A stretch of 64,000 nt of DNA, from the NCBI GenBank assembly GCA_029245245.1, contig JAQWPT010000011.1:186001-250000 (forward strand), written 5' to 3'. Shown here one piece after another: positions 5,556 through 24,095 of this stretch. The translations under genes were made by a program, and so were the position numbers. Origin of the DNA: Phycisphaerales bacterium (GTDB taxonomy: Bacteria > Planctomycetota > Phycisphaerae > Phycisphaerales > SM1A02). The stretch's first letter is position 1. Each line of letters opens with the position of its first letter. Below the pieces are notes generated by a model. It searched no databases. It had not been told where the DNA came from and saw only the letters and a list, made by a program, of their open reading frames with translations.

Positions 5556-6029
5556 ATGACCGACACGCCGCTCGACAAACTGGACTGGATCGATGGACTG
5601 ATCCAATTGATGGAATCCCAGGACGGGATCGTCCGGGCCCTCGATGCCATCGCTCCGGAGCAGGCCTCCTGCATTGCAGCCGGGCAGGTCGACACGCTGC
5701 TGGTGGTACTGGCTCGAAGGCAGGAACTGGTTGAATCCCTGCTGTCGACCCAGGCAAGCCTCACCACGATGACGCGGAATCTCGAGGAACGACTTGCCGG
5801 TGTTTCAGCCGGCAAGCGGGACCGGGTGCACGAACTGATGGACAGCGTGGATCGAACCATGCAGTCCGTACTCGCTCGCGATGAGGAGGATCGGGCTCAG
5901 CTGCAGGAGCAGCGTGATGCCGTCCGCGGCGGGCTCAGTGAACTGGATGCTGGCCGTCGGGCTCGACACGGATACCAGGCGACCCCGCAGGCGGGGGAAA
6001 CGCATCGGTTCGCCGATGCTCGAGGATGA
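5556..6029 (+). CDS. FlgN-like flagellar chaperone
   Basis: The 157-residue protein is almost wholly helical and heptad-rich (LDKLDWIDGLIQLMESQDGI, RRQELVESLLSTQASLTTM), of the size and character of FlgN. FlgN binds the hook-filament junction proteins FlgK and FlgL in the cytoplasm and delivers them to the flagellar export gate. Sequence conservation in FlgN is low, so the assignment leans on length, helical make-up and position at the head of a flagellar gene cluster. Its stop is followed directly by the histidine kinase start (TGA 6027-6029, ATG 6031), so the two are translationally coupled. The last 20 residues are hydrophilic and probably disordered. Confidence 0.65.
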   Translation: MTDTPLDKLDWIDGLIQLMESQDGIVRALDAIAPEQASCIAAGQVDTLLVVLARRQELVESLLSTQASLTTMTRNLEERLAGVSAGKRDRVHELMDSVDRTMQSVLARDEEDRAQLQEQRDAVRGGLSELDAGRRARHGYQATPQAGETHRFADARG

Positions 6030-6030
6030 C

Positions 6031-6939
6031 ATGACGCAGGCACCCAACAGCACGCAACAGGGATCCACCGAGCTGACCGCTGCGGAGCTCGGGGATCTCA
6101 TGCAGTCGGTGATGGAAACGGCCGAACGCCTGCAGAGTACGCACGGCGTGCTGCAGGACCAGGTGCAGCGGCTGGAGCGTGAACTGGCCGAGGCCAATGC
6201 CCAGTTGCACCGTTCCCGTGAACTGGCATCGTTGGGAGAAATGGCGGCTGGGATCGCCCACGAAATCAGAAATCCACTGGCATCGATCCAGCTCTACGCG
6301 GAAGTGCTGGCGGAGGATCTGGCATCGCGGCCGGAGCAGGCCGAAGTGTGTCAGAAGATCGATCGCTCGGTTCGTCGCATGGATGTCATCGTTCGAGATG
6401 TACTGCAGTTCGCTCGTGAATCGACTGTTCGCTTCGAGGACATGCCGGCATCGGCTCTGATCGAGCGGGTCGTCGGTTCCTGTGGTGATTCGGCGTCGAG
6501 CGTACAGGTTTCGATCGGGATGGATCCGGCCGTTCGGGTCGACCCGTCGTTGATGCTCCAGGCTCTCGGAAACATCGTTCGCAACGGACTTGAGTCGATG
6601 GAGCACGAGACCGATGGGGGGCGATTGGAGATCGGTATCGAACAACAGCGACTGCGGTGTCCGGATGGACAGGTTCGCTCATGCACGATCTTCCGGGTGG
6701 AGGATCGTGGTTGTGGCATCCCGGAACCTGATCAGGAACGCCTGTTCAACCCCTTCTTCACCACGCGGGCCTCGGGAACCGGGCTCGGGCTGGCAATCGC
6801 GCACCGCGTCGTGGATGCGCATGGTGGGCACATTCATGTATCGAATCGATCCGGAGGAGGCACACGGTTCGACGTATGCGTTCCGGCACCGGTTGGTCAC
6901 GAGAACATCGCCTCAAGCGATGGAGGAACATGCACATGA
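6031..6939 (+). CDS. FlrB/FleS-type flagellar sensor histidine kinase
   Basis: The 302-residue soluble kinase has no membrane segment. It begins with a coiled-coil stretch, then an H-box GIAHEIRNPLAS (phospho-acceptor His77), an N-box (GNIVRNGLESM), a G1 box (VEDRGCGIP), an F-box (PFFTTR) and a G2 box (GTGLGLAIAHRVVDAHGG). This is the NtrB/FlrB/FleS layout. In other flagellated bacteria such kinases phosphorylate a sigma-54 activator to switch on hook-basal-body genes. ATG 6031 is chosen because GAGGA at 6022-6026 precedes it; an upstream ATG at 6016 lacks a site. Its stop overlaps the response regulator start in ATGA (6936-6939). Confidence 0.88.
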   Translation: MTQAPNSTQQGSTELTAAELGDLMQSVMETAERLQSTHGVLQDQVQRLERELAEANAQLHRSRELASLGEMAAGIAHEIRNPLASIQLYAEVLAEDLASRPEQAEVCQKIDRSVRRMDVIVRDVLQFARESTVRFEDMPASALIERVVGSCGDSASSVQVSIGMDPAVRVDPSLMLQALGNIVRNGLESMEHETDGGRLEIGIEQQRLRCPDGQVRSCTIFRVEDRGCGIPEPDQERLFNPFFTTRASGTGLGLAIAHRVVDAHGGHIHVSNRSGGGTRFDVCVPAPVGHENIASSDGGTCT

Positions 6940-8348
6940 CACGGGTACTGGTCGTCGATGACAAGGAAATGATGCGTGACAGCGTGGCGACCATGCTGTC
7001 TCGAAAGGGGCACGGTGTCGTGGTTGCCAACGGTGGTGCTGCGGCCCTGGAGAAACTTGCATCCAGCCCCTGTGATGCAGTGATCACCGACCTGCAGATG
7101 CCGGAAATGACCGGCGTGGAACTTCTGAAGGCCATCCGTGAGATTGACGAGCAGATTCCCGTCATCCTGATGACGGCCTACGGAACGGTCGAGACCGCGG
7201 TCGAGGCCATGAAGCTCGGTGCCTACGACTACATCACCAAGCCCTTCAGTGGCGACGAACTGATCAACACCATCGAGCGGGCGCTGGAACGTGGGCGGCT
7301 CGTCAAGGAGAACCAGATTCTCAAGGTGCGTGGTACGCCGGCGGGATCCAGTGCGTGCGGTCGAGAGCACGAGATGGTGGGCGGCAGCGAATCACTGGTG
7401 GGACTGCGGCTTCGGCTGCGGCAGATCGCCGAGAGCAACTCCACCGTCCTCGTGACCGGTGAATCCGGAACGGGCAAGGAAGTGGCCAGTCGCTGGATCC
7501 ATGAGCACAGTCCACGAGTCGAAGGTCCGTTCCTTGCCATCAACTGCGCGGCCCTGTCGCCAAGCCTGTTGGAATCGGAATTGTTCGGTCACGAAAAGGG
7601 CGCGTTCACCGGCGCCGACAAGATGCGGAAGGGTCGGTTCGAACTTGCCGATGGAGGGACCCTGCTGCTGGACGAGATCAGCGAGATTGCCCCCGAAATC
7701 CAGGCCAAGCTGCTCCGGGTGCTCCAGGAACGATCGTTTGAACGCGTCGGATCATCCACCAGTCGCTCCGTGGATGTCCGGATCATCGCCACGTCCAACA
7801 GGGACCTGCAGGCCGAGGTGGAGTCGGGGACATTTCGGCAGGATCTCTTCTTTCGACTCAACGTGCTGCCGCTGCACATGCCGCCGCTGCGTGAACATGC
7901 CGAGGACATCCCTGAACTGGTGACCCACTTCCTTCGGACCCTCTCGGCTCGCGAGGGGCGCGAGCCATGCCGGGTCCAGCCGGACGCAATGGACCTCATG
8001 ATGCAGTACCGGTGGCCGGGAAACGTACGGGAACTCGAGAACATCTGTGAGCGGGCCCACGTGCTTTCAACGAACTCCCAGGTGACGGCGGAGCTGGTTT
8101 CCAGCTGGTTGACCTGCGTAGTCGAGCCGGAAGTGGTGGTCTCGGACATGGATGAACAGGACATTGAACTTGTCTGCGACGGTGTTCGCCAACTCGAGGA
8201 CATCGAGCGGGCGGTGATCGTCGCCACCCTGACCCATCACGATGGGCACCGCCAGCGAAGTGCCTCGGCACTGGGAATCGGGGTCCGGACTCTCGGACTG
8301 AAACTCAAGAAATGGAAGGACTCGAACCTCGTGCCGACCACGATCTGA
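6936..8348 (+). CDS. FlrC/FleR-type sigma-54-dependent response regulator
   Basis: The 470-residue protein has three parts. The receiver domain (about 1-120) has the acidic pair at VVDDKE, phospho-acceptor Asp52 in DAVITDLQMPE and Lys in ITKPF. The AAA+ sigma-54 activation domain (about 145-380) has Walker A GESGTGKE, the sigma-54-contacting GAFTGA loop, Walker B GGTLLLDEI and an RWPGNVRELEN segment. A C-terminal Fis-type helix-turn-helix sits near residues 420-465 (SASALGIGVRTLGLKLKKWK). This is the class that drives hook and basal-body genes. ATG 6936 has a Shine-Dalgarno TGGAGGA at 6921-6927. Sigma-54 promoter candidates before flgB and flgE make those operons its likely targets. Confidence 0.9.
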   Translation: MTRVLVVDDKEMMRDSVATMLSRKGHGVVVANGGAAALEKLASSPCDAVITDLQMPEMTGVELLKAIREIDEQIPVILMTAYGTVETAVEAMKLGAYDYITKPFSGDELINTIERALERGRLVKENQILKVRGTPAGSSACGREHEMVGGSESLVGLRLRLRQIAESNSTVLVTGESGTGKEVASRWIHEHSPRVEGPFLAINCAALSPSLLESELFGHEKGAFTGADKMRKGRFELADGGTLLLDEISEIAPEIQAKLLRVLQERSFERVGSSTSRSVDVRIIATSNRDLQAEVESGTFRQDLFFRLNVLPLHMPPLREHAEDIPELVTHFLRTLSAREGREPCRVQPDAMDLMMQYRWPGNVRELENICERAHVLSTNSQVTAELVSSWLTCVVEPEVVVSDMDEQDIELVCDGVRQLEDIERAVIVATLTHHDGHRQRSASALGIGVRTLGLKLKKWKDSNLVPTTI

Positions 8349-8420
8349 TCTCGATGCGCAGTATCTGCGCCTGCCCAGCCGAAATCCGGCGCGGAAATCG
8401 AGGCATGGCATCATCAGGAT

Positions 8421-8436
8421 CGGTGCGAGATTTGCA
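8421..8436 (+). promoter_or_regulatory. Candidate sigma-54 (-24/-12) promoter for flgB
   Basis: CGGTGCGAGATTTGCA matches the sigma-54 consensus TGGCACG-N4-TTGCA at 9 of 12 fixed positions, with GG (8422-8423) and GC (8434-8435) at the correct N10 spacing. Transcription would begin near 8446, leaving a leader of about 22 nt before flgB ATG 8469. Confidence 0.6.
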
Positions 8437-8468
8437 GACAGTGCGATGACCCACCCCGGAGACCCGAA

Positions 8469-8894
8469 ATGATCGAAGGAGTCACCAATGGACTTGACCT
8501 TCCAGTTCTGGAACGTGTGATCCAATTCGCGGCACGCCGGCAGGACATCATTGTCAACAACATCGCCAACATCTCGACTCCGGATTTCCGGCCCGTAGAC
8601 GTGTCCACGAGTGATTTTCAGGCCCAACTGGGAGATGCCATCGATCAGCGGCGTGGAAGCGGTGGGGGCGATCTCCCGATGCAGAGCACCCGGGAAGTGC
8701 AGGTCACCGAAGGTGGCCTGCAGTTGAATCCGGGACCCTCGGGAGACAACTTGCTGTTCCATGACGGAAATGACCGCGATCTGGAACGAATCATGCAGGA
8801 CCTCGTACAGAACTTTCTTGTATTCCGGACGACCTCCGAACTGCTCCAGAACCGGTTCGACATTCTGAATACGGCCATCAGAGGACGCATCTGA
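8469..8894 (+). CDS. flgB: Flagellar basal-body rod protein FlgB
   Basis: The 141-residue protein has the FlgB pattern: an N-terminal helix with RQDIIVNNIANISTPDFRPVDV, the rod/hook-family NNIAN-T motif (residues about 28-42), and a C-terminal helix ending LVQNFLVFRTTSELLQNRFD. FlgB is the proximal rod protein at the base of the flagellar drive shaft in the periplasm and is exported by the flagellar type III system without a cleaved signal. It leads flgC after 2 nt. A sigma-54 promoter candidate lies 33 nt upstream, so the rod genes seem to start their own transcript just after the regulator gene. Confidence 0.93.
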   Translation: MIEGVTNGLDLPVLERVIQFAARRQDIIVNNIANISTPDFRPVDVSTSDFQAQLGDAIDQRRGSGGGDLPMQSTREVQVTEGGLQLNPGPSGDNLLFHDGNDRDLERIMQDLVQNFLVFRTTSELLQNRFDILNTAIRGRI

Positions 8895-14502: not shown

Positions 14503-14948
14503 TGTCCTTCGTATTCAACTACCAGGCTGTTCTCGAGGCTCGGGCCGCTGAGGAAGCGGCCAGCGAACAGGCCATCGGCCCTCTCGTGTCCCGGCGGAAC
14601 ACGCTGGAGTCCGAGTTGATCGAGCATCGGCAGTACCTGGAATCAAATCGACACCTGACTCGATCACAGCTGGTCGGGGACATCGACATCAACGTCCTGC
14701 GTTCCTATGCCGGGCAATCCGTCCAGGCGATGCGTCGCATCCGTTCGCTGCTGCTGGAGATGTCGGAACTCCACGGAGTCATGGAAACGGCGAAGGAAGA
14801 GTGGATGGAGTGTCGTCGGCGTCGTCGGAGCATCGAGTGCCTGCGTGATCGAGCGTTGGCGTCATGGAATCGCCAGCGAAAGCGAATGGAGATCCGTGAA
14901 CAGGATGACCTCGTGTCCACACGGGCATCACGGGAGTTGCAGGCATGA
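14502..14948 (+). CDS. fliJ: Flagellar export protein FliJ
   Basis: The 148-residue protein is a two-helix coiled coil with the FliJ N-terminal pattern FVFNYQAVLEARAAEEA. FliJ is the stalk inside the FliI hexamer and cycles chaperones. Two starts are possible, GTG 14499 or ATG 14502. AGGAGG at 14487-14492 suits either, and ATG 14502 overlaps the fliI stop by one base. Heavy Arg content in the second helix (ECRRRRRSIECLRDRALASW) is noticeable but fits the family. Confidence 0.8.
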   Translation: MSFVFNYQAVLEARAAEEAASEQAIGPLVSRRNTLESELIEHRQYLESNRHLTRSQLVGDIDINVLRSYAGQSVQAMRRIRSLLLEMSELHGVMETAKEEWMECRRRRRSIECLRDRALASWNRQRKRMEIREQDDLVSTRASRELQA

Positions 14949-15655
14949 AACGAACATGGAACATCGTCAGTTTTCTGGCCATCGTGAACCTGTTGACCAT
15001 TCTGCTGCTCATCGCCTGGATGTGGCAGACGGAACGGCTGACCGAAGAACGAATCAGCTCGCTTCGCACCTGGGTCATGTCGCCGCCGGGGGCCGATGTC
15101 CCGGCAGCGATGGATTCGTCGGTTGAAGAGGACATCGAATCCCAGGATGCGATGATCGGTCTCAGCAGCCAGCAGCGTCTGGAGTGGCTTGAGCACTGGC
15201 GCATGCAGAGTGAACAGCGATTGCAGAGTCTCGTGGACGAGGCCGAGCGCCGAAGCCTGGAGGTTCAATCACGCCTGACGGACCTGGAACTCCAGCGGCA
15301 GGAACTGGCGGCACGTGAGCAGGCCATCGACGACCTGGCGACCTCCCAGGCGGCCCTGCAGGCGGACGAGGCCTTTCAGCGGACGGTTCTGCTCTACCAG
15401 TCGGCGCGGCCATCGACGGCCAAGGCCTGGTTGCTGGCCTTGATCGATGAGGGGCGGCTCCCACGAGCTGTGGAATACCTTTCGGCGATGGATGCACGAT
15501 CCGCTTCCAAGGTGCTTCAGGCCTTCAATACCGGAAACGAGATCAAGTTGGCAAAGCAGTTGCTGGAGTCCATGAGCGGGGCGCATCCGATCGCCACCGC
15601 CGAAGGACTGCCCAGCGATGCTCATGCCCACATCCAGCCCGGTTCCACCCCATGA
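14945..15655 (+). CDS. MotE/YlxF-like flagellar membrane protein
   Basis: The 236-residue protein starts in the last codons of fliJ (ATGA, 14945-14948). A single membrane helix lies near residues 8-27 (VSFLAIVNLLTILLLIAWMW), a coiled coil near 80-135, and a C-terminal helical domain (RPSTAKAWLLALIDEGRLPR; ARSASKVLQAFN) resembles the MgtE-N-like domain of MotE/YlxF. MotE-type proteins sit between fliJ and fliK in many clusters and help place the stator protein MotB. The context and architecture match. No motA or motB lies in the window. Identity at family level is inferred from these features. Confidence 0.65.
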   Translation: MKRTWNIVSFLAIVNLLTILLLIAWMWQTERLTEERISSLRTWVMSPPGADVPAAMDSSVEEDIESQDAMIGLSSQQRLEWLEHWRMQSEQRLQSLVDEAERRSLEVQSRLTDLELQRQELAAREQAIDDLATSQAALQADEAFQRTVLLYQSARPSTAKAWLLALIDEGRLPRAVEYLSAMDARSASKVLQAFNTGNEIKLAKQLLESMSGAHPIATAEGLPSDAHAHIQPGSTP

Positions 15656-16838
15656 GGGAGCCCCTGTTTCCTCACTGGAAACGGGGGTCAATGGCGTTCA
15701 AGACCCTCTGGATGGGGTTGATTCATTCCCCCCCGTGCTTGAGGGAATACACCCAGGCGTAACCCCGCCCAGGGTTGATCCCGTCGCGCACAACAATGCA
15801 GATGCTGCGCAAATCCTGCCCGAGGCACACGGTTCGGAGGCGGAGGCGGCTCCTCCAATCCGTCCTTGGCCGATCATGGATCCAGATTCGACATCCCGAA
15901 CCGATGCAACTGCCGGCACGGTGCATGAGCCCCAAGTGGCTGCTCCGCCGACCAAACTGCTGCAGGCGGCTTCGCCCGGCATGCCGGTTGAAGCCACCTT
16001 CAGGCCGCAGGTGCCAGTCAATGGCCAGAGGCTTGAGGTGGAATCGCCATCCACACCGAACACACCGAGCGGGCCGAAGGGGCCGAACGGGTCGACACCA
16101 GTCCCGGTCCCTTCAACCGTTTCCGTTGAGCGGAGCACCACGACCGTCGAACCAGGTTCCACGTCCACCAGGCACGGAGCAACACTGCCTGCGGGTGGAG
16201 AACTCCAGCGTGTCGAACTGGCCGTGCATGCGTCGCAGCAATCCGGGAATGACGCCCGTGTCCTGCTGGCTCCACCAACTGCGCCGACACTGGGTGGGGA
16301 GCAGGTGAGCCATGGTGCCGCACGTGGCGAGCACGCATCTGCTCCATCGGCGCCCAGGGCGGCTCCTCCGCCCCTCGGACGTGCTGCCAATCTCATGTCA
16401 TCGATGATGACCCTGGCCAACGGGTCCGGTGGCGTGGCCCGGTTGCGTCTCGATCCACCCCTGCTGGGAGAAGTCATCGTGCAGTTGACGGTGCATGCGA
16501 CCGGAGTGGACTGTTCACTTCAAGCCGCCCGATCCATCGGTGCGGAGGCACTGGTGAAGGAGTTGAGTTCACTGCGGACGGGGCTTGAAGCACGCGGACT
16601 GATCGTGGATCGCATGGTCGTGCATGGACCGCAGGGCATGCATGAATCGCCCTTGGAGCAGGAAGAGCCGGTGGATGCACGCCGGCAGGATGAAGATGAG
16701 CGGAACCAACAACATCGACATGGCCGCCGGAACCACCCGGTGGCAGAGCACGAAGACGAATCATGGCTATTTCAGGACATGCTGGCACTTGAACCAGGTC
16801 CTGACCATTCGACGACCGAAGGAGAACAGGTTTCATGA
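15618..16838 (+). CDS. fliK: Flagellar hook-length control protein FliK
   Basis: The 406-residue protein has a long, Pro/Ser/Thr/Gly-rich unstructured N-terminal part and a C-terminal Flg_hook (hook-length control) domain near residues 255-345, with GSGGVARLRLDPPLLGEVIV and LSSLRTGLEARGLIVDRMVV. This is the FliK ruler layout: the secreted disordered region measures hook length and the C domain switches export specificity. The start is uncertain (ATG 15618 or 15624, both inside the upstream gene). A hairpin follows at 15661-15686. The tail has a His/Arg-rich segment (QQHRHGRRNHP). Confidence 0.85.
   Translation: MLMPTSSPVPPHEGAPVSSLETGVNGVQDPLDGVDSFPPVLEGIHPGVTPPRVDPVAHNNADAAQILPEAHGSEAEAAPPIRPWPIMDPDSTSRTDATAGTVHEPQVAAPPTKLLQAASPGMPVEATFRPQVPVNGQRLEVESPSTPNTPSGPKGPNGSTPVPVPSTVSVERSTTTVEPGSTSTRHGATLPAGGELQRVELAVHASQQSGNDARVLLAPPTAPTLGGEQVSHGAARGEHASAPSAPRAAPPPLGRAANLMSSMMTLANGSGGVARLRLDPPLLGEVIVQLTVHATGVDCSLQAARSIGAEALVKELSSLRTGLEARGLIVDRMVVHGPQGMHESPLEQEEPVDARRQDEDERNQQHRHGRRNHPVAEHEDESWLFQDMLALEPGPDHSTTEGEQVS
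15661..15686 (+). promoter_or_regulatory. Hairpin inside the 5' end of fliK, just after the motE-like stop
   Basis: CCCC-T-GTTTCC (15661-15671) pairs with GGAAAC-GGGG (15677-15686): a 10-bp stem with one bulged T and a 5-nt loop, starting 6 nt after the upstream stop codon. It lies in the fliK coding frame and is not followed by a T tract. Confidence 0.45.
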
Positions 16839-17428
16839 GCAGCATCAATGGTTTCACACCGATCGGACCGGGAGCCCCTTCTTCGGAGGCCTCGGGATTC
16901 AACCAGATGAGTTCAGAGGATTTCATCCGGGTCATCTTCACCGAGTTGGCAAACCAGGATCCGTTGTCACCCAACGACTCCGCGGCATTGCTCGACCAGC
17001 TCAATTCGATCCGGTCGATCGAGTCCGACCTGGAGATGATGGACAAACTCGAGTCTCTCGTCTTCGAGAACCAGTTGTCCTCGGCCAGTTCAATGATCGG
17101 CAAGTTCGTCGGTGGCCTGACGCCCGAGGGATTGCGTGTCGGTGGCCATGTGCTGTCCGTAGTTCGGCAGGGCGGTGAAGTCGCCTTGGAACTGGATACG
17201 GGGTGGTTCCTTCCGCTTGATGGCGTCGAAACCATCATCGATCCGGATCTCATCGGTGACATGACCGGTGAGACGGATTCGACGGACGAGACCGGTGACG
17301 GTGATGAAATCGAGGACGGTGAGGAAGGCGAAGGTGGCGAAGAAGGTGAAGGAGGCGAGGAAGGTGAGGGCGGCGAGGAAGGCGATGGAGGCGATGGAGG
17401 CGAGGAAGGTGATGGTGACGAAGGCTGA
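16835..17428 (+). CDS. flgD: Flagellar hook assembly (capping) protein FlgD with acidic tail
   Basis: The 197-residue protein carries the FlgD core: an N-terminal conserved part with EDFIRVIFTELANQDPLSPN (the FLxLLxxQLxxQDPLxP motif of the family), then SSASSMIGKFVGG and a short beta segment to about residue 145. FlgD caps the growing hook. The usual larger C-terminal Ig-like domain is absent. Instead the last ~45 residues are a Glu/Gly/Asp repeat (EGEGGEEGEGGEEGEGGEEG). It overlaps the fliK end in ATGA (16835-16838), and flgE follows after a promoter region of about 185 bp. Confidence 0.88.
   Translation: MSSINGFTPIGPGAPSSEASGFNQMSSEDFIRVIFTELANQDPLSPNDSAALLDQLNSIRSIESDLEMMDKLESLVFENQLSSASSMIGKFVGGLTPEGLRVGGHVLSVVRQGGEVALELDTGWFLPLDGVETIIDPDLIGDMTGETDSTDETGDGDEIEDGEEGEGGEEGEGGEEGEGGEEGDGGDGGEEGDGDEG
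17302..17425 (+). repeat. GAAGGYGAAGGxGGC-type repeat encoding the FlgD acidic tail
   Basis: Degenerate tandem repeats of 12-18 bases (GGCGAGGAAGGTGAGGGCGG and variants) encode a run of Glu and Gly with a few Asp. Pure-purine runs of this type are prone to slippage, so length variation between strains is likely. Confidence 0.8.
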
Positions 17429-17515
17429 TGCCATCCAGTGGCGGGGTCGGGCGCAAATCCTGCTGCCGAGTTCCGCCCAATGCCCCTCCTGGACGCCCTG
17501 ATGTACCAGTGAGGG

Positions 17516-17528
17516 GGGGTGACACCCC
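17516..17528. promoter_or_regulatory. Inverted repeat abutting the flgE -24 element
   Basis: GGGGTG-A-CACCCC is a perfect 6-bp inverted repeat with a single central base. Its last C is the first base of the sigma-54 element, so a protein bound here could affect holoenzyme binding. Confidence 0.4.
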
Positions 17529-17543
17529 GGCACGTCGATTGCA
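17528..17543 (+). promoter_or_regulatory. Sigma-54 (-24/-12) promoter for flgE
   Basis: CGGCACGTCGATTGCA matches the consensus TGGCACG-N4-TTGCA at 11 of 12 fixed positions, with GG at 17529-17530 and GC at 17541-17542. Transcription would begin near 17553, about 60 nt before ATG 17615. Confidence 0.75.
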
Positions 17544-17614
17544 GCCCTTGAAGTGGCGCGGTGCAGACCGCACGAACCCGGCACATGGCCGGAAACCCAA
17601 ATGGAGCATTTCCC

Positions 17615-19396
17615 ATGGCATCAACACCAGCCCTCTACACCGGCCTTTCCGGCCTGCTGAGCAACCAGAACCGACTGAATGTCATCGGCAACAACATTGC
17701 CAATGTCAATACGACGGCCTTCAAGTCGACCCGAATGCTGTTTGAGTCCATGTTCAGCCGGACCCAGTCGCTGGGCTCCGGCCCGAGTGGCCGCAGCGGT
17801 GGCATCAATCCCCGCCAGGTCGGCAACGGAAGCACGGTAGCCGGGACGCAGCGGAACTTTTCCAACGGGGCGCTGACTGCCACCGGAATGGCCACCGACA
17901 TGGCAATCGAGGGCGAGGGGTTCTTCATCACCCAACTCAATGGCGAGCGGCTCTTCACCCGTGACGGTTCGTTTCTCACGAACGAGAACAACCAGTTGGT
18001 GACCTCCAGCGGCGCCTACGTGATGGGATACGGGGTCGACGACAACTACCAGATCGAATTTGGTGAACTGGAACCGATCGTGATTCCACTCGGGCAGATG
18101 ACTGTTGCGGAAGCAACCGAGAACATCTACTTTGCGGGCAACCTCAATGCGTCCGGTGAACTGCCCGTCAGTGGTTCCATTCACGGCACGGCTCCGTTCT
18201 ATTCCGAACCGACCGGGAACCAGGCCATGACCGGCCTCGAGGATCTCACGCAGGTGGGAACCAACCTGTACATGAATGATGGTGACGGCGGCTACGAACT
18301 TGCGATCGAGGGCGGCGCCATGGCGACGATCGAAATCGACAACATCGAGAAGGGCGGGCAGGATCTCGGGTCGTTCAGTTTCACCTTCTGCACCGCCGAG
18401 GAAGCTGCTGCCAACGATATCGAGCACTTTGGTTCGACGATGGCTGACTTCGCCAGCGCACTGGACCAGTTTCTGGGTCTGGACAATACCGACGTTTCCG
18501 GTCAGAACCTCGGGGGCAGCGTTCTTCTGAACAACAACGGGGGCATGATCATCTTCGGAAACGAAGGTACCGCTCAGGGGCTGAATATCTCCACCTCCGA
18601 CATCTCCGTGTCCTACATGGGGGAGCCGGTGGAAACGCCTCCGACAAATCCATTCGTCATCACGGAATCGACCGAGGCGACCGGTGAATCGGTTCGCACC
18701 AGTTTCGTCGCCTACGATTCACTTGGAACCGCGGTGAACATCGATGTCACCATGGTTCTGCAGGAGACGATCGACGGGCAGGGATCGGTCTGGGAGTTCA
18801 TCGCGGAATCATCGGATAACCATTCGCTGGATCGCATAGTGGGACTCGGCACGCTGCAGTTCGACAACGAGGGGAACCTCGTGTCGGCATCGAATACGAC
18901 CATCAACATCACCCGGACAAACGGGGCGGTCAATCCCATGTCGCTGTCGCTGGACTTCAACTATGGGGCAGAAGGCATCACCGCCTACGCGGATACCGTC
19001 AGTACGCTTTCCGTGGCAGGCCAGGATGGATCCGGCATCGGGCACCTGGTTTCGTTCTCGGTCGGTCAGGACGGCCTGATCACCGGAGCCTTCACCAATG
19101 GAATGACCCGGACACTCGGACAGGTCGCCCTGGCGAAGTTCAACAACCCAGGTGGTCTGGAGGATGTCGGCAGCGGGTACTACCGCGTCGGAGCCAACTC
19201 GGGTGAGCCGATGTACACGACGGCGACGAGCCTTGGGGCTGGACGAATCATCGGTGGAGCACTGGAACTTTCGAATGTCGATCTCTCACAGGAGTTCATC
19301 GACATGATCCTCGCATCCACCGGCTACACGGCGTCCAGCCGCGTGATTTCGACGACGGATGAGTTGATGGATCAGTTGCTGCTGCTGGGACGCTGA
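17615..19396 (+). CDS. flgE: Flagellar hook protein FlgE
   Basis: ATG 17615 has GGAG at 17603-17606. The 593-residue protein has the hook-family N terminus (LYTGLSGLLSNQNRLNVIGN then NIANVNTTAFKSTRMLF), a LeVxGEGFF-like segment (MAIEGEGFFITQLNGERLFT), a long variable middle and the C-terminal helix pattern (VDLSQEFIDMILASTGYTAS then SRVISTTDELMDQLL). FlgE polymerises into the flexible hook outside the cell. It is longer than the ~400-residue enterobacterial form because of an expanded surface domain. The own sigma-54 promoter fits hook genes in many bacteria. It ends 10 nt from the convergent aminotransferase gene. Confidence 0.94.
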   Translation: MASTPALYTGLSGLLSNQNRLNVIGNNIANVNTTAFKSTRMLFESMFSRTQSLGSGPSGRSGGINPRQVGNGSTVAGTQRNFSNGALTATGMATDMAIEGEGFFITQLNGERLFTRDGSFLTNENNQLVTSSGAYVMGYGVDDNYQIEFGELEPIVIPLGQMTVAEATENIYFAGNLNASGELPVSGSIHGTAPFYSEPTGNQAMTGLEDLTQVGTNLYMNDGDGGYELAIEGGAMATIEIDNIEKGGQDLGSFSFTFCTAEEAAANDIEHFGSTMADFASALDQFLGLDNTDVSGQNLGGSVLLNNNGGMIIFGNEGTAQGLNISTSDISVSYMGEPVETPPTNPFVITESTEATGESVRTSFVAYDSLGTAVNIDVTMVLQETIDGQGSVWEFIAESSDNHSLDRIVGLGTLQFDNEGNLVSASNTTINITRTNGAVNPMSLSLDFNYGAEGITAYADTVSTLSVAGQDGSGIGHLVSFSVGQDGLITGAFTNGMTRTLGQVALAKFNNPGGLEDVGSGYYRVGANSGEPMYTTATSLGAGRIIGGALELSNVDLSQEFIDMILASTGYTASSRVISTTDELMDQLLLLGR

Positions 19397-22167: not shown

Positions 22168-23649
22168 TCAGCTTCGCAGTTCCTTGCGGATCTCGCCGAG
22201 CAGTTGCACGAGGTCGATGGGCGCTTCCTGGCGGTCGAGCACGATCCGGGGTTCCTCTTCCAGGGTGCGTGTCAACCGGTTTGCTGCGGCATGCACCGAG
22301 GAGTGGTTGTTTCGTCCCAGGGCCCGGCCGATTTCCGGGTAACTGCGGGTCGTCATTTCTCGAGCGAGGTAGGCGACCAGGGACCGGCCAAGGCTGATCC
22401 GGCGATGCCGTGCCGTGCCAGTGAGGTCGTCACGGGTCACCCCGAGTCGCTGGCAGACGACATCCATGATCATGGCCAGGGTGACATGGACGGTCCGGTC
22501 AAGAGCTCGATGTTCCAGTAGACGGTGGATCGTAGCGCTGCCGATCATTCGTCGGCCGAACTCGTCGATACCGGGGATCAGCATCTGGCTGGCATCGGCG
22601 GCGTGGACCTGGGCGGGATCGAGCATCTGCATCGCCTCCAGCCGGGTCAGGATCCCCAGAAGTTCACGGACGGAGCCGGGGCAGTTGGTCGCCAGCAGTC
22701 TGGCTGCGGATTCCGAGAGATGCAGTGAACGCCGCACTGCGAGTTGTTGGACCAGTGCCAGGCGAGTCGTCGGGTCCGGTTCGTCGATCTCGACCACCAT
22801 GCCACAGAGGAATCGGCTGACGAGGCCCTTGCTGAAGCGGGCGATGTCGTGCGGGTGCTCATCGGACGCCAGGGCGAGTCGAGCCCCCGTCAGTTCGATG
22901 GCATCAAGCGTGTGGAGGAATTCGACCTGTGTCTTCTTCTTGTTCGACAGGAAATGCACATCGTCGATGGCCAGCAGTTGCAGTCCCCGGTGGGCCTTGC
23001 GGAATCGATCCATCGATCCCTCCTGGATGGCCGTGATGTACTCGTTCGTGAACTGCTCTCCGGTGACGTATCGGATCCGGGAGCGGTCGCCCATTCGTTC
23101 GCCGGCACGCCGGCAGAGGCCCTGGAGCAGGTGTGTCTTTCCAAGCCCGCAGCCACCGTGGATGAACAGGGGGGAGACGGAGGATCGTTCGCCCTCTTCG
23201 GCCAGTCGGCAGGTCGCAGACCAGGCGAGTCGATTGCTTTCACCGACGACGAACCCGTCCAGACTTGCCAGGCCGGGCCCACGGGATGCGGACTGCATCC
23301 CGGGTGGGGTCGGCCGCCGCCCCCGATCTCGATCGGGGGCGGGCGGCCGCGTGCTCCGTGCGCCCCGGTCGCCCTCCCGTGGCTGTTCGTGCCGGCCTGC
23401 AGCCGGTGGTCTCTTCGTGTTGACAGTGACGTGGACATCAGCAGCCGTACCGAGCGTTTCCTGGGCAACCGAGCGAAGTGTTCGGTTGAATCGGTGATTG
23501 ATCCAGTCCGCGACGAACTGCGTTCGTGCCTGGATCTCCACTCGTGCACCATCGACGGAAATGTCTGTCTGCCCGAACCACATCGCGTAGCGATGCTCGC
23601 CGATGTGTTCGCTGAGGCGACGGGTAATGGTGTCGGAAGTCTGGGGCAC
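22168..23649 (-). CDS. dnaA: Chromosomal replication initiator DnaA
   Basis: The 493-residue reading starts at GTG 23649 (VPQTSDTITRRLSEHIG). This is chosen because DnaA domain I begins there, although the open frame extends to 23847. Domain I (about 1-75) is followed by a Pro/Arg-rich linker with a polar low-complexity stretch (DRGARSTRPPAPDRDRGRRP). AAA+ domain III has Walker A GGCGLGKTHLL (near 166) and Walker B LAIDDVHFLSNKKK (near 230). Domain IV ends in YPEIGRALGRNNHSSVHAAA. The canonical box-recognition motif GGRDHTTVLHA is replaced by GRNNHSSVHAA. No dnaN or gyrB lies nearby. A 517-bp non-coding region precedes the gene. Confidence 0.9.
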   Translation of the reverse strand: MPQTSDTITRRLSEHIGEHRYAMWFGQTDISVDGARVEIQARTQFVADWINHRFNRTLRSVAQETLGTAADVHVTVNTKRPPAAGRHEQPREGDRGARSTRPPAPDRDRGRRPTPPGMQSASRGPGLASLDGFVVGESNRLAWSATCRLAEEGERSSVSPLFIHGGCGLGKTHLLQGLCRRAGERMGDRSRIRYVTGEQFTNEYITAIQEGSMDRFRKAHRGLQLLAIDDVHFLSNKKKTQVEFLHTLDAIELTGARLALASDEHPHDIARFSKGLVSRFLCGMVVEIDEPDPTTRLALVQQLAVRRSLHLSESAARLLATNCPGSVRELLGILTRLEAMQMLDPAQVHAADASQMLIPGIDEFGRRMIGSATIHRLLEHRALDRTVHVTLAMIMDVVCQRLGVTRDDLTGTARHRRISLGRSLVAYLAREMTTRSYPEIGRALGRNNHSSVHAAANRLTRTLEEEPRIVLDRQEAPIDLVQLLGEIRKELRS

Positions 23650-23762
23650 GGGTACCTGTGAGATCAGGAGACGCCACGGTAAATCATGCGGTCGTTGTCC
23701 TGGTCGAGACCGAGTGGTGCCGGTTCGCCAGTGGGAGTGACCCCGCCGCATCACGTCTTCAA

Positions 23763-23782
23763 GGAAACACGAATGTGTTTCC
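23763..23782. repeat. Perfect inverted repeat upstream of dnaA
   Basis: GGAAACAC and GTGTTTCC flank GAAT: 8-bp arms and a 4-nt loop, 114 nt upstream of the dnaA start. It may be an operator or an RNA hairpin. Confidence 0.5.
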
Positions 23783-24095
23783 CGCCTCAACACATGGTCG
23801 AAGCCCATCCTGGTGGAATCTGCGGCCGGTTGAACAACAGCGTGCATTCATTGCTCGCCGCGGGTTCATGTCCATCGTCGTGTGTGACGTGTTGCAGGTG
23901 AGCCGCATCGATGCGTGCATCGGTTCGACGCTGCGTGCCTCTACGCGAGCCTGGACATGGCCGTAGATCAGCCGTCCATGGCCTCACGAAGGGTGGAACA
24001 ATACGTCTTTGGGAACCGGCCGACAACCCCCTTCCGGGGAATCACCAGGGCGCCGGAGGGTGTACGCCCAGTGTTTGCAAGGTGATTGCAGGCGG

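Follow-up and report, generated by a model that had tools for sequence, protein, structure and literature searches.

The present analysis concerns the flagellar hook gene flgE of a Phycisphaerales bacterium and the DNA in front of it, within a window of 64,000 nt (contig JAQWPT010000011.1, assembly GCA_029245245.1). Coordinates are positions in this window, and the host genome comprises 2.69 Mb in 38 contigs at 96% completeness. The gene encodes a hook protein of 593 amino acids (17615..19396, plus strand; Pfam and NCBIfam; start ATG 17615). It follows flgD, the gene of the hook cap protein (16835..17428, plus strand; Pfam), the product of which has an acidic repetitive tail, its C-terminal end being a long acidic Gly/Glu repeat (GEEGEGGEEGEG..., window 17270-17425). 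The 186-bp gap between the end of flgD at 17428 and the flgE ATG holds CGGCACGTCGATTGCA (17528..17543, plus strand), a near-consensus sigma-54 -24/-12 element. Situated 77 bp upstream of this element is GCGCA-N5-TGC (17451..17463), a candidate activator site (enhancer) that the initial annotation of this DNA had missed. The stretch 17451-17543 is very probably a sigma-54-dependent flgE promoter with its own enhancer, forming part of a flagellar two-component regulon, as judged from the sequence and its relatives.

The sigma-54 consensus is TGGCACG-N4-TTGCW, and CGGCACGTCGATTGCA departs from it by one mismatch over the 12 fixed positions, at the first base only; recounting at 17528-17543 reproduced the 11 of 12 matches given in the initial annotation. 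The GG at 17529-17530 and the GC at 17541-17542 are 10 bases apart, which predicts a transcript start near 17554 (17553 in the initial annotation). The gap had also been described as the only sizeable one inside the cluster; it is indeed the largest in the flgB-flgE run, but 120 bp (8349-8468) also separate the activator gene from flgB. Sites with at most one mismatch number 34 in the 2.69 Mb, both strands included, and the chance of finding one of them in the flgD-flgE gap on the same strand is about 0.001 by arithmetic estimate from these 34. Matches with at most three mismatches number 91 in the window, against 99 expected. The sigma-54 motif alone is uninformative, and the flgE promoter is called because of the position of the element, its conservation and its paired activator site, not because of the motif count.

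Conservation of the element was followed in the three genus members compared, namely the host genome and two same-genus relatives (G000, G001 and G002). The flgD-flgE gap has mostly diverged across the genus, and two islands are kept in it, the -24/-12 element and, 77 bp upstream of it in the host, GCGCAAATnnTGC. The element is conserved in all three members as an island between diverged flanks; its conservation in related genomes had been proposed as a check by the initial annotation, and it is retained in both relatives. Beyond the genus, the interval -140 to -30 of flgE loci was scanned with a sigma-54 weight matrix, and 12 of 55 loci (host included) carry a site scoring at least 10.9, at -54 to -106, each with a shuffle p of at most 0.013. 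These positives comprise 10 of the 25 loci of the window's family (f1), two of the seven loci of named metagenome-assembled genomes and none of the 23 loci of families f2-f6. The two positive loci from named metagenome-assembled genomes group with the f1 genome G023 in the FlgE tree. The flgE element is therefore not order-wide, as evident from 0/23 loci outside the window's family; G053 (f6) has a site at -209, beyond the scanned interval.

The strongest support for function comes from pairing of the element with the upstream activator site, which is likewise conserved in the genus. GCGCA-N5-TGC occurs upstream of the sigma-54 site in six of the nine strong-site flgE loci, at 57-89 bp within the 40-110 bp searched (0.016 expected), and in the matching interval of one of the 43 other loci. 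Four of 56 loci were left out of this comparison: L129 (short upstream DNA), L133 (a fragment) and two weaker positives, L053 and L041, which at best match the full palindrome with 4 and 2 mismatches, respectively. The motif is probably the enhancer of the cluster's NtrC-like activator, an assignment made because its full form lies between the activator gene and flgB. When the enhancer is also required, three lineages are left: the window's own genus, G008 and the MED-G178/NAT18 group. In the FlgE tree the three are separated from one another, and their neighbours G036 (next to the genus) and G004 (next to G008) lack the site; the flgE promoter may have had one origin with later losses instead of separate origins, the deep forks of the tree being unresolved. 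Three other exact matches to the activator site in the host genome lie at C5:95051 (best adjacent sigma-54 score 4.4), C30:264820 and C33:14045.

The flgD-flgE distance is 342-761 bp in 39 of the 47 loci where FlgD was found, and an open frame lies in between in most of them. Three translated copies of this frame are alike by eye (LLKRLxPxVRP...DGRxxLMDV), and NCBIfam gave no match for one copy. G000 and G001 lack the frame, their gaps being too short for it (186 and 143 bp), and in G002 a contig end conceals it. The family TIGR02530 was considered for it; it gave no match in the host genome, a result that is uninformative since a relative's copy of the gene is unmatched too.

The components needed for such a promoter are encoded in the same genome. 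The presumed activator is an NtrC-like response regulator (6876..8348, plus strand; Pfam; start codon uncertain) with a receiver domain (PF00072), a sigma-54 AAA+ domain (PF00158) and a Fis-type helix-turn-helix (HTH) domain (PF02954); the statement of the initial annotation that a sigma-54 activator is encoded in the flagellar cluster is thus corroborated. In each of the 41 cluster regions scanned, a homologue of the regulator precedes flgB. The regulator falls below the cut-off of the NCBIfam flagellar activators (FlgR, 315 of 750 bits; FlbD, 350 of 750 bits); it belongs to the same superfamily as FlgR and FlbD and is not one of those equivalogs. A histidine kinase frame, the presumed partner kinase (5881..6939, plus strand; Pfam; start codon uncertain), has no evident transmembrane segment (hydropathy maximum 1.02) and no Pfam domain ahead of HisKA. 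The gene rpoN, on the presence of which the initial annotation had made its prediction depend, has one match in the host genome (E 3.6e-57) and is present in 60 of the 61 genomes searched, host included; the planctomycete (Phycisphaerales) setting of the flgE promoter is likewise borne out. FliA and flagellin genes are present in the genome and available for a later class. The hook-length control gene fliK lies at 15618..16838 (plus strand; Pfam), and dnaA is found at 22168-23847 on the opposite strand, about 3 kb past flgE.

A second promoter is predicted in the activator-flgB gap. There, GCGCAGTATCTGCGC (8356..8370), the putative activator site, lies 65 bp before a weaker sigma-54-like element, CGGTGCGAGATTTGCA (8421..8436, plus strand; 3 mismatches), in which GG and TTGCA are unchanged in all three members of the genus. 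GCGCAGTATCTGCGC is an instance of a recurrent palindrome, GCGCA-N5-TGCGC, seen in this gap across genomes. When one mismatch is allowed, 31 of 41 genomes have it in the gap or within the final 150 nt of the activator gene (1.2 expected from shuffles), and 29 still do if only the gap is counted; gaps without it are mostly shorter than 60 bp, the longer exceptions being G009, G010 and G047. The palindrome reaches 6.5 copies per kb in this gap (26 exact copies), against 0-0.65 per kb in the 17 other segments. Furthermore, a plus-strand sigma-54 site scoring at least 11.5 is found in 22 of the 41 gaps, where 0.19 would be expected.

The reach of this promoter was followed in a sample of 119 genomes of the phylum. 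A strong activator match was present in 54 of these, and 30 loci were obtained, of which 24 lie outside the order. In 16 of these 24, flgB was located downstream of the activator homologue by tblastn. A sigma-54 site scoring at least 12 is present in six of the 16 activator-flgB gaps (0.12 expected), and several further gaps show GG-N10-GC with TTGC by eye. The GCGCA palindrome with at most one mismatch occurs in a single one of the 16 (L188), and variants such as GGCAG-N3-CTGCC were seen by eye in some. The two frequencies, 6/16 and 1/16, suggest that the promoter extends well outside the order and that this form of the enhancer is mostly order-specific. A sigma-54-like motif in the flgB coding sequence (TGGAACGGATCATGCA) is attributed to the encoded protein and discounted as a promoter (resampling p 0.18 and 0.74). 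Such flgB-internal motifs recur, for example TGGAACGAATCATGCA at 8782-8797, and call for caution in motif scans.

A third promoter is predicted before flgF. In the three genus members, a sigma-54 site, CGGCACGGAACTTGCG or near it, is conserved 225-235 bp upstream of flgF, ahead of flgF-flgG (L166, reverse complement, 2886-2901; L167, 2504; L168, 2362), and GGCA-N5-TGCGC lies 85-95 bp further upstream. Exact palindromes are found 78-87 bp upstream of the site before flgF in G036, G027 and G020, genomes that were picked by the composite search described below and so are not independent evidence. That search, for an enhancer followed by a -24/-12 element in 61 genomes, returned 17 matches as compared to 11 for the backwards pattern, a small excess; by position or open reading frames, 12 of the 17 are at flgB (nine) or flgF (three). 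An upstream activator site is shared by several flagellar promoters, those of flgB, flgE and flgF, at which the activator would bind. Exact enhancer palindromes followed by strong sigma-54 sites were also observed at L172 649-752 and at L174 602-685 (reverse complement) (TGGCACGACGATTGCG and TGGCACGCGGGTTGCG, respectively), and these are possible further members of the regulon. In addition, a one-mismatch sigma-54 site, TGGCACGGCATGTGCT, lies at G000:C10:15966-15981 (L017), on the same strand as a flagellin-family gene and nearly 4 kb upstream of it.

A further element was located within coding sequence. An unnamed gene before fliK (14945..15655, plus strand; 236 amino acids), with a hydrophobic N-terminal segment by eye and no match in Pfam or NCBIfam, contains TGGCAAAGCAGTTGCT (15549..15564, plus strand), a sigma-54-like element and presumed intragenic promoter of fliK-flgD. 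TGGCA-N6-TTGCT is found inside this gene in most genomes scanned, and members of the order without it include G017, G027 and G045 among others. The element encodes a conserved LAxxLL stretch, and in several variants GCAA can pair with TTGC by eye, which would suit a protein motif or an RNA hairpin instead of a promoter. The codon choice argues against this. Among 33 sequences the element's TTG (28/33) and GCA (24/33) are the two most deviant of 234 columns, while TTG makes up 3-24% of leucine codons in these genomes. Synonymous-codon resampling with each genome's own usage, applied in 36 genomes to the stretch 50-180 nt from the gene end, gave a Fisher p of 7e-22, with a best site scoring at least 13 in 23 of the 36, as compared to p values of 0.12-0.99 for 11 control segments. 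The p value is overstated owing to the relatedness of the genomes, a dependence that the control segments share. The deviant codon choice is thus evidence of selection at the level of the DNA, the controls not being significant. Variants such as TGGCCTCTGATTTGCT and TGGCCGCGATTTTGCT, moreover, retain GG and GC by eye while the pairing is lost. A protein motif or hairpin is accordingly regarded as rather improbable, and the most fitting interpretation of the element is a sigma-54 promoter within the gene, situated about 70 bp ahead of fliK in the genus.

Outside the order, 14 loci were searched for the intragenic element. Two ended before the region, and tblastn found the gene in one, which has no site scoring at least 12.5; L220, L223 and L226 have sites of at least 12.5 downstream of fliI, in DNA without gene assignment. 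Between the gene before fliK and flgD, nine exact enhancer palindromes occur over 51 kb; the remaining segments, with the flgB gap excluded, contain five over about 605 kb. A single genus contributes four of the nine, and all nine are scattered over distances of 55-1719 nt past the gene end. These counts are a slight hint of enhancers inside fliK. In the host, the activator-site-like GCGCAAATCCTGCCC (15807..15821; a single mismatch) is a weakly supported candidate for such a downstream enhancer, and no counterpart at one mismatch was found in the two same-genus genomes. For the fliK-internal motif, resampling over a segment 200-330 nt from the gene end gave no significance (p 0.47); one FliK column reached z 5.8 in the codon comparison.

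Several observations weigh against a dedicated flgE promoter. Genome-wide, the motif shows no enrichment, with 398 matches at up to two mismatches as compared to 543 for the reversed pattern; the sigma-54 weight matrix is not a trained one; and 43 of the 55 flgE loci are without such a site. The positives of G017, G032, G009 and G033 lie inside the open frame between flgD and flgE, and that of G027 lies in or at the end of this frame. These five may be coding sequence or chance matches, and the three of them tested for the exact enhancer all lack it. The flgE enhancer itself consists of one perfect and one degenerate half, and the host's own flgB element is weak, scoring below 11.5. The genome-wide counts and the many loci without a site would suit a random near-consensus match in the flgE gap, with the hook gene transcribed by read-through only. 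Such an accident is nevertheless very unlikely, as the element forms a conserved island in the genus and the activator site occurs far more often in strong-site loci than in the others. The initial annotation had further suggested that a 6-bp inverted repeat touching the -24 element might be an extra control point. The repeat, GGGGTG-A-CACCCC (17516..17528), is present and has one base in common with the element, and G008, of another genus, has GGGGT-N5-ACCCC beside its site, which we take as chance. Against an operator or attenuator, the palindrome is absent at the aligned place in both same-genus relatives; a 6-bp inverted repeat arises by chance with a probability of 0.45 anywhere in such a gap and 0.15 near the site; and neither a terminator or terminator-like site nor a sigma-70 promoter was found in 17300-17700. 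A regulatory role of the palindrome is thus extremely unlikely, and it is judged a chance feature.

The flgE promoter is best read as one confined to a few lineages within a multi-promoter flagellar sigma-54 regulon. The kinase presumably phosphorylates the NtrC-like regulator encoded beside it, which would bind GCGCA-N5-TGC and drive open-complex formation by RpoN polymerase at 17528-17543. The transcript would begin at about 17554 and run through flgE, and the promoter would top up the hook protein beyond what read-through from upstream promoters supplies. The regulon would be shared with the flgB and flgF operons and probably also with the intragenic promoter before fliK.

The initial annotation had gone further and proposed a hook-gene checkpoint like that of Campylobacter and Vibrio. 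In a checkpoint of the Campylobacter type, the cell begins with the MS ring, rotor and export parts, and their completion activates the kinase and, through it, the sigma-54 rod and hook genes. The part of this proposal that stood is the sigma-54 flgE promoter together with an activator encoded in the cluster; a kinase without an evident membrane segment, sigma-54-like sites before flgE, fliK and flgF, and genes for a later class are also in keeping with it. What speaks against it is gene order, because fliF and fliG lie closely behind flgB, flgC and fliE, downstream of the sigma-54-like flgB promoter, so that the parts to be sensed seem to depend on the same sigma-54 step. The HTH domain of the regulator and its conserved candidate enhancers also set it apart from the FlgR of Helicobacter pylori. 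A Campylobacter-like checkpoint in simple form is therefore doubtful and on balance unlikely; it might be rescued if fliF and fliG were supplied by basal read-through from the activator operon. A nested circuit is a more far-reaching possibility, at somewhat below an even chance for the whole. The activator would read GCA-N5-TGC at the flgB promoter, which would also serve the MS ring and rotor genes and is found in other branches of the phylum. Extra sigma-54 promoters would serve the hook genes: one, at the level of the order, would lie within the gene preceding fliK and may have enhancers inside fliK, and the other would lie close to flgE, in no fewer than three separate lineages of a single family. 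Timing would be set by graded sites and not by a basal-body checkpoint; the weaker enhancer halves at flgE could, for example, delay hook synthesis. Within this nested circuit, separate origins of the flgE promoter and the presence of enhancers in fliK are the less firm parts.

Systems with a kinase and an NtrC-type regulator governing flagellar sigma-54 genes are known, and the portions of PMC7064773 drawn upon here describe FlgSR of Campylobacter jejuni, FlrBC of Vibrio cholerae and FleSR of Pseudomonas aeruginosa. The present cluster resembles them in having a kinase, an NtrC-type regulator and RpoN promoters of rod and hook genes, and the flgBCDE and flgFGHIJ promoters of V. cholerae in the same portions parallel the flgB and flgF promoters predicted here (PMC7064773). 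In C. jejuni, according to these portions, the MS ring-rotor-export complex is made ahead of the sigma-54 rod and hook genes (PMC7064773). Unlike the polar flagellates as they are outlined there, the sigma-54 promoter adjacent to the activator gene here precedes a single, tightly spaced series of rod, MS-ring, rotor and export-ATPase genes, and the hook genes have extra candidate promoters. The arrangement may also be likened to FlbD and ftr of Caulobacter crescentus, where an activator acts at short elements of flagellar sigma-54 promoters, as stated in the relevant part of PMC3930126; FlbD is described in the part of PMC7064773 concerned as lacking a cognate kinase, whereas a kinase gene adjoins the regulator gene here. 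H. pylori FlgR likewise takes part in two-component control of flagellar genes, flgE among them, that depend on RpoN; in the text of PMC3930126 relied on, it has no DNA-binding domain and acts without enhancers, while the regulator here has a Fis-type HTH domain and conserved candidate enhancers. The sense-oriented element inside the gene before fliK, which would serve the downstream gene, is similar to the intragenic sigma-54 promoters of Escherichia coli (PMC4591121). The section of PMC4591121 used gives three confirmed cases with leaders of 360-760 nt, as compared to about 70 bp before fliK in the genus. Unlike the E. coli cases, the present element occurs in most genomes of an order and in a flagellar operon.

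Closer to the present organism, sigma-54 control of motility genes in the class Planctomycetia has been predicted computationally and in bulk, as set out in part of PMC12316311, and within that part Phycisphaerae are named once, for a chaperone cluster. It was the only paper returned by a literature search combining Phycisphaerae, flagella and rpoN. PMC3162934 had no match for planctomycetes or flgE, and among the papers listed by searches that covered the subscription literature thinly, none has a title on sigma-54 flagellar control in Phycisphaerales. The control described here seems to be of a known kind, in a little-studied group, with a layout differing from the textbook cases. For Phycisphaerales, the analysis links one concrete activator to a likely DNA site and to three or more target promoters, so that the putative regulon becomes testable. 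The codon-constrained intragenic element and the placement of MS-ring genes behind the same sigma-54 promoter furthermore raise the question of how general the basal-body checkpoint of polar flagellates is among sigma-54 flagellar systems.

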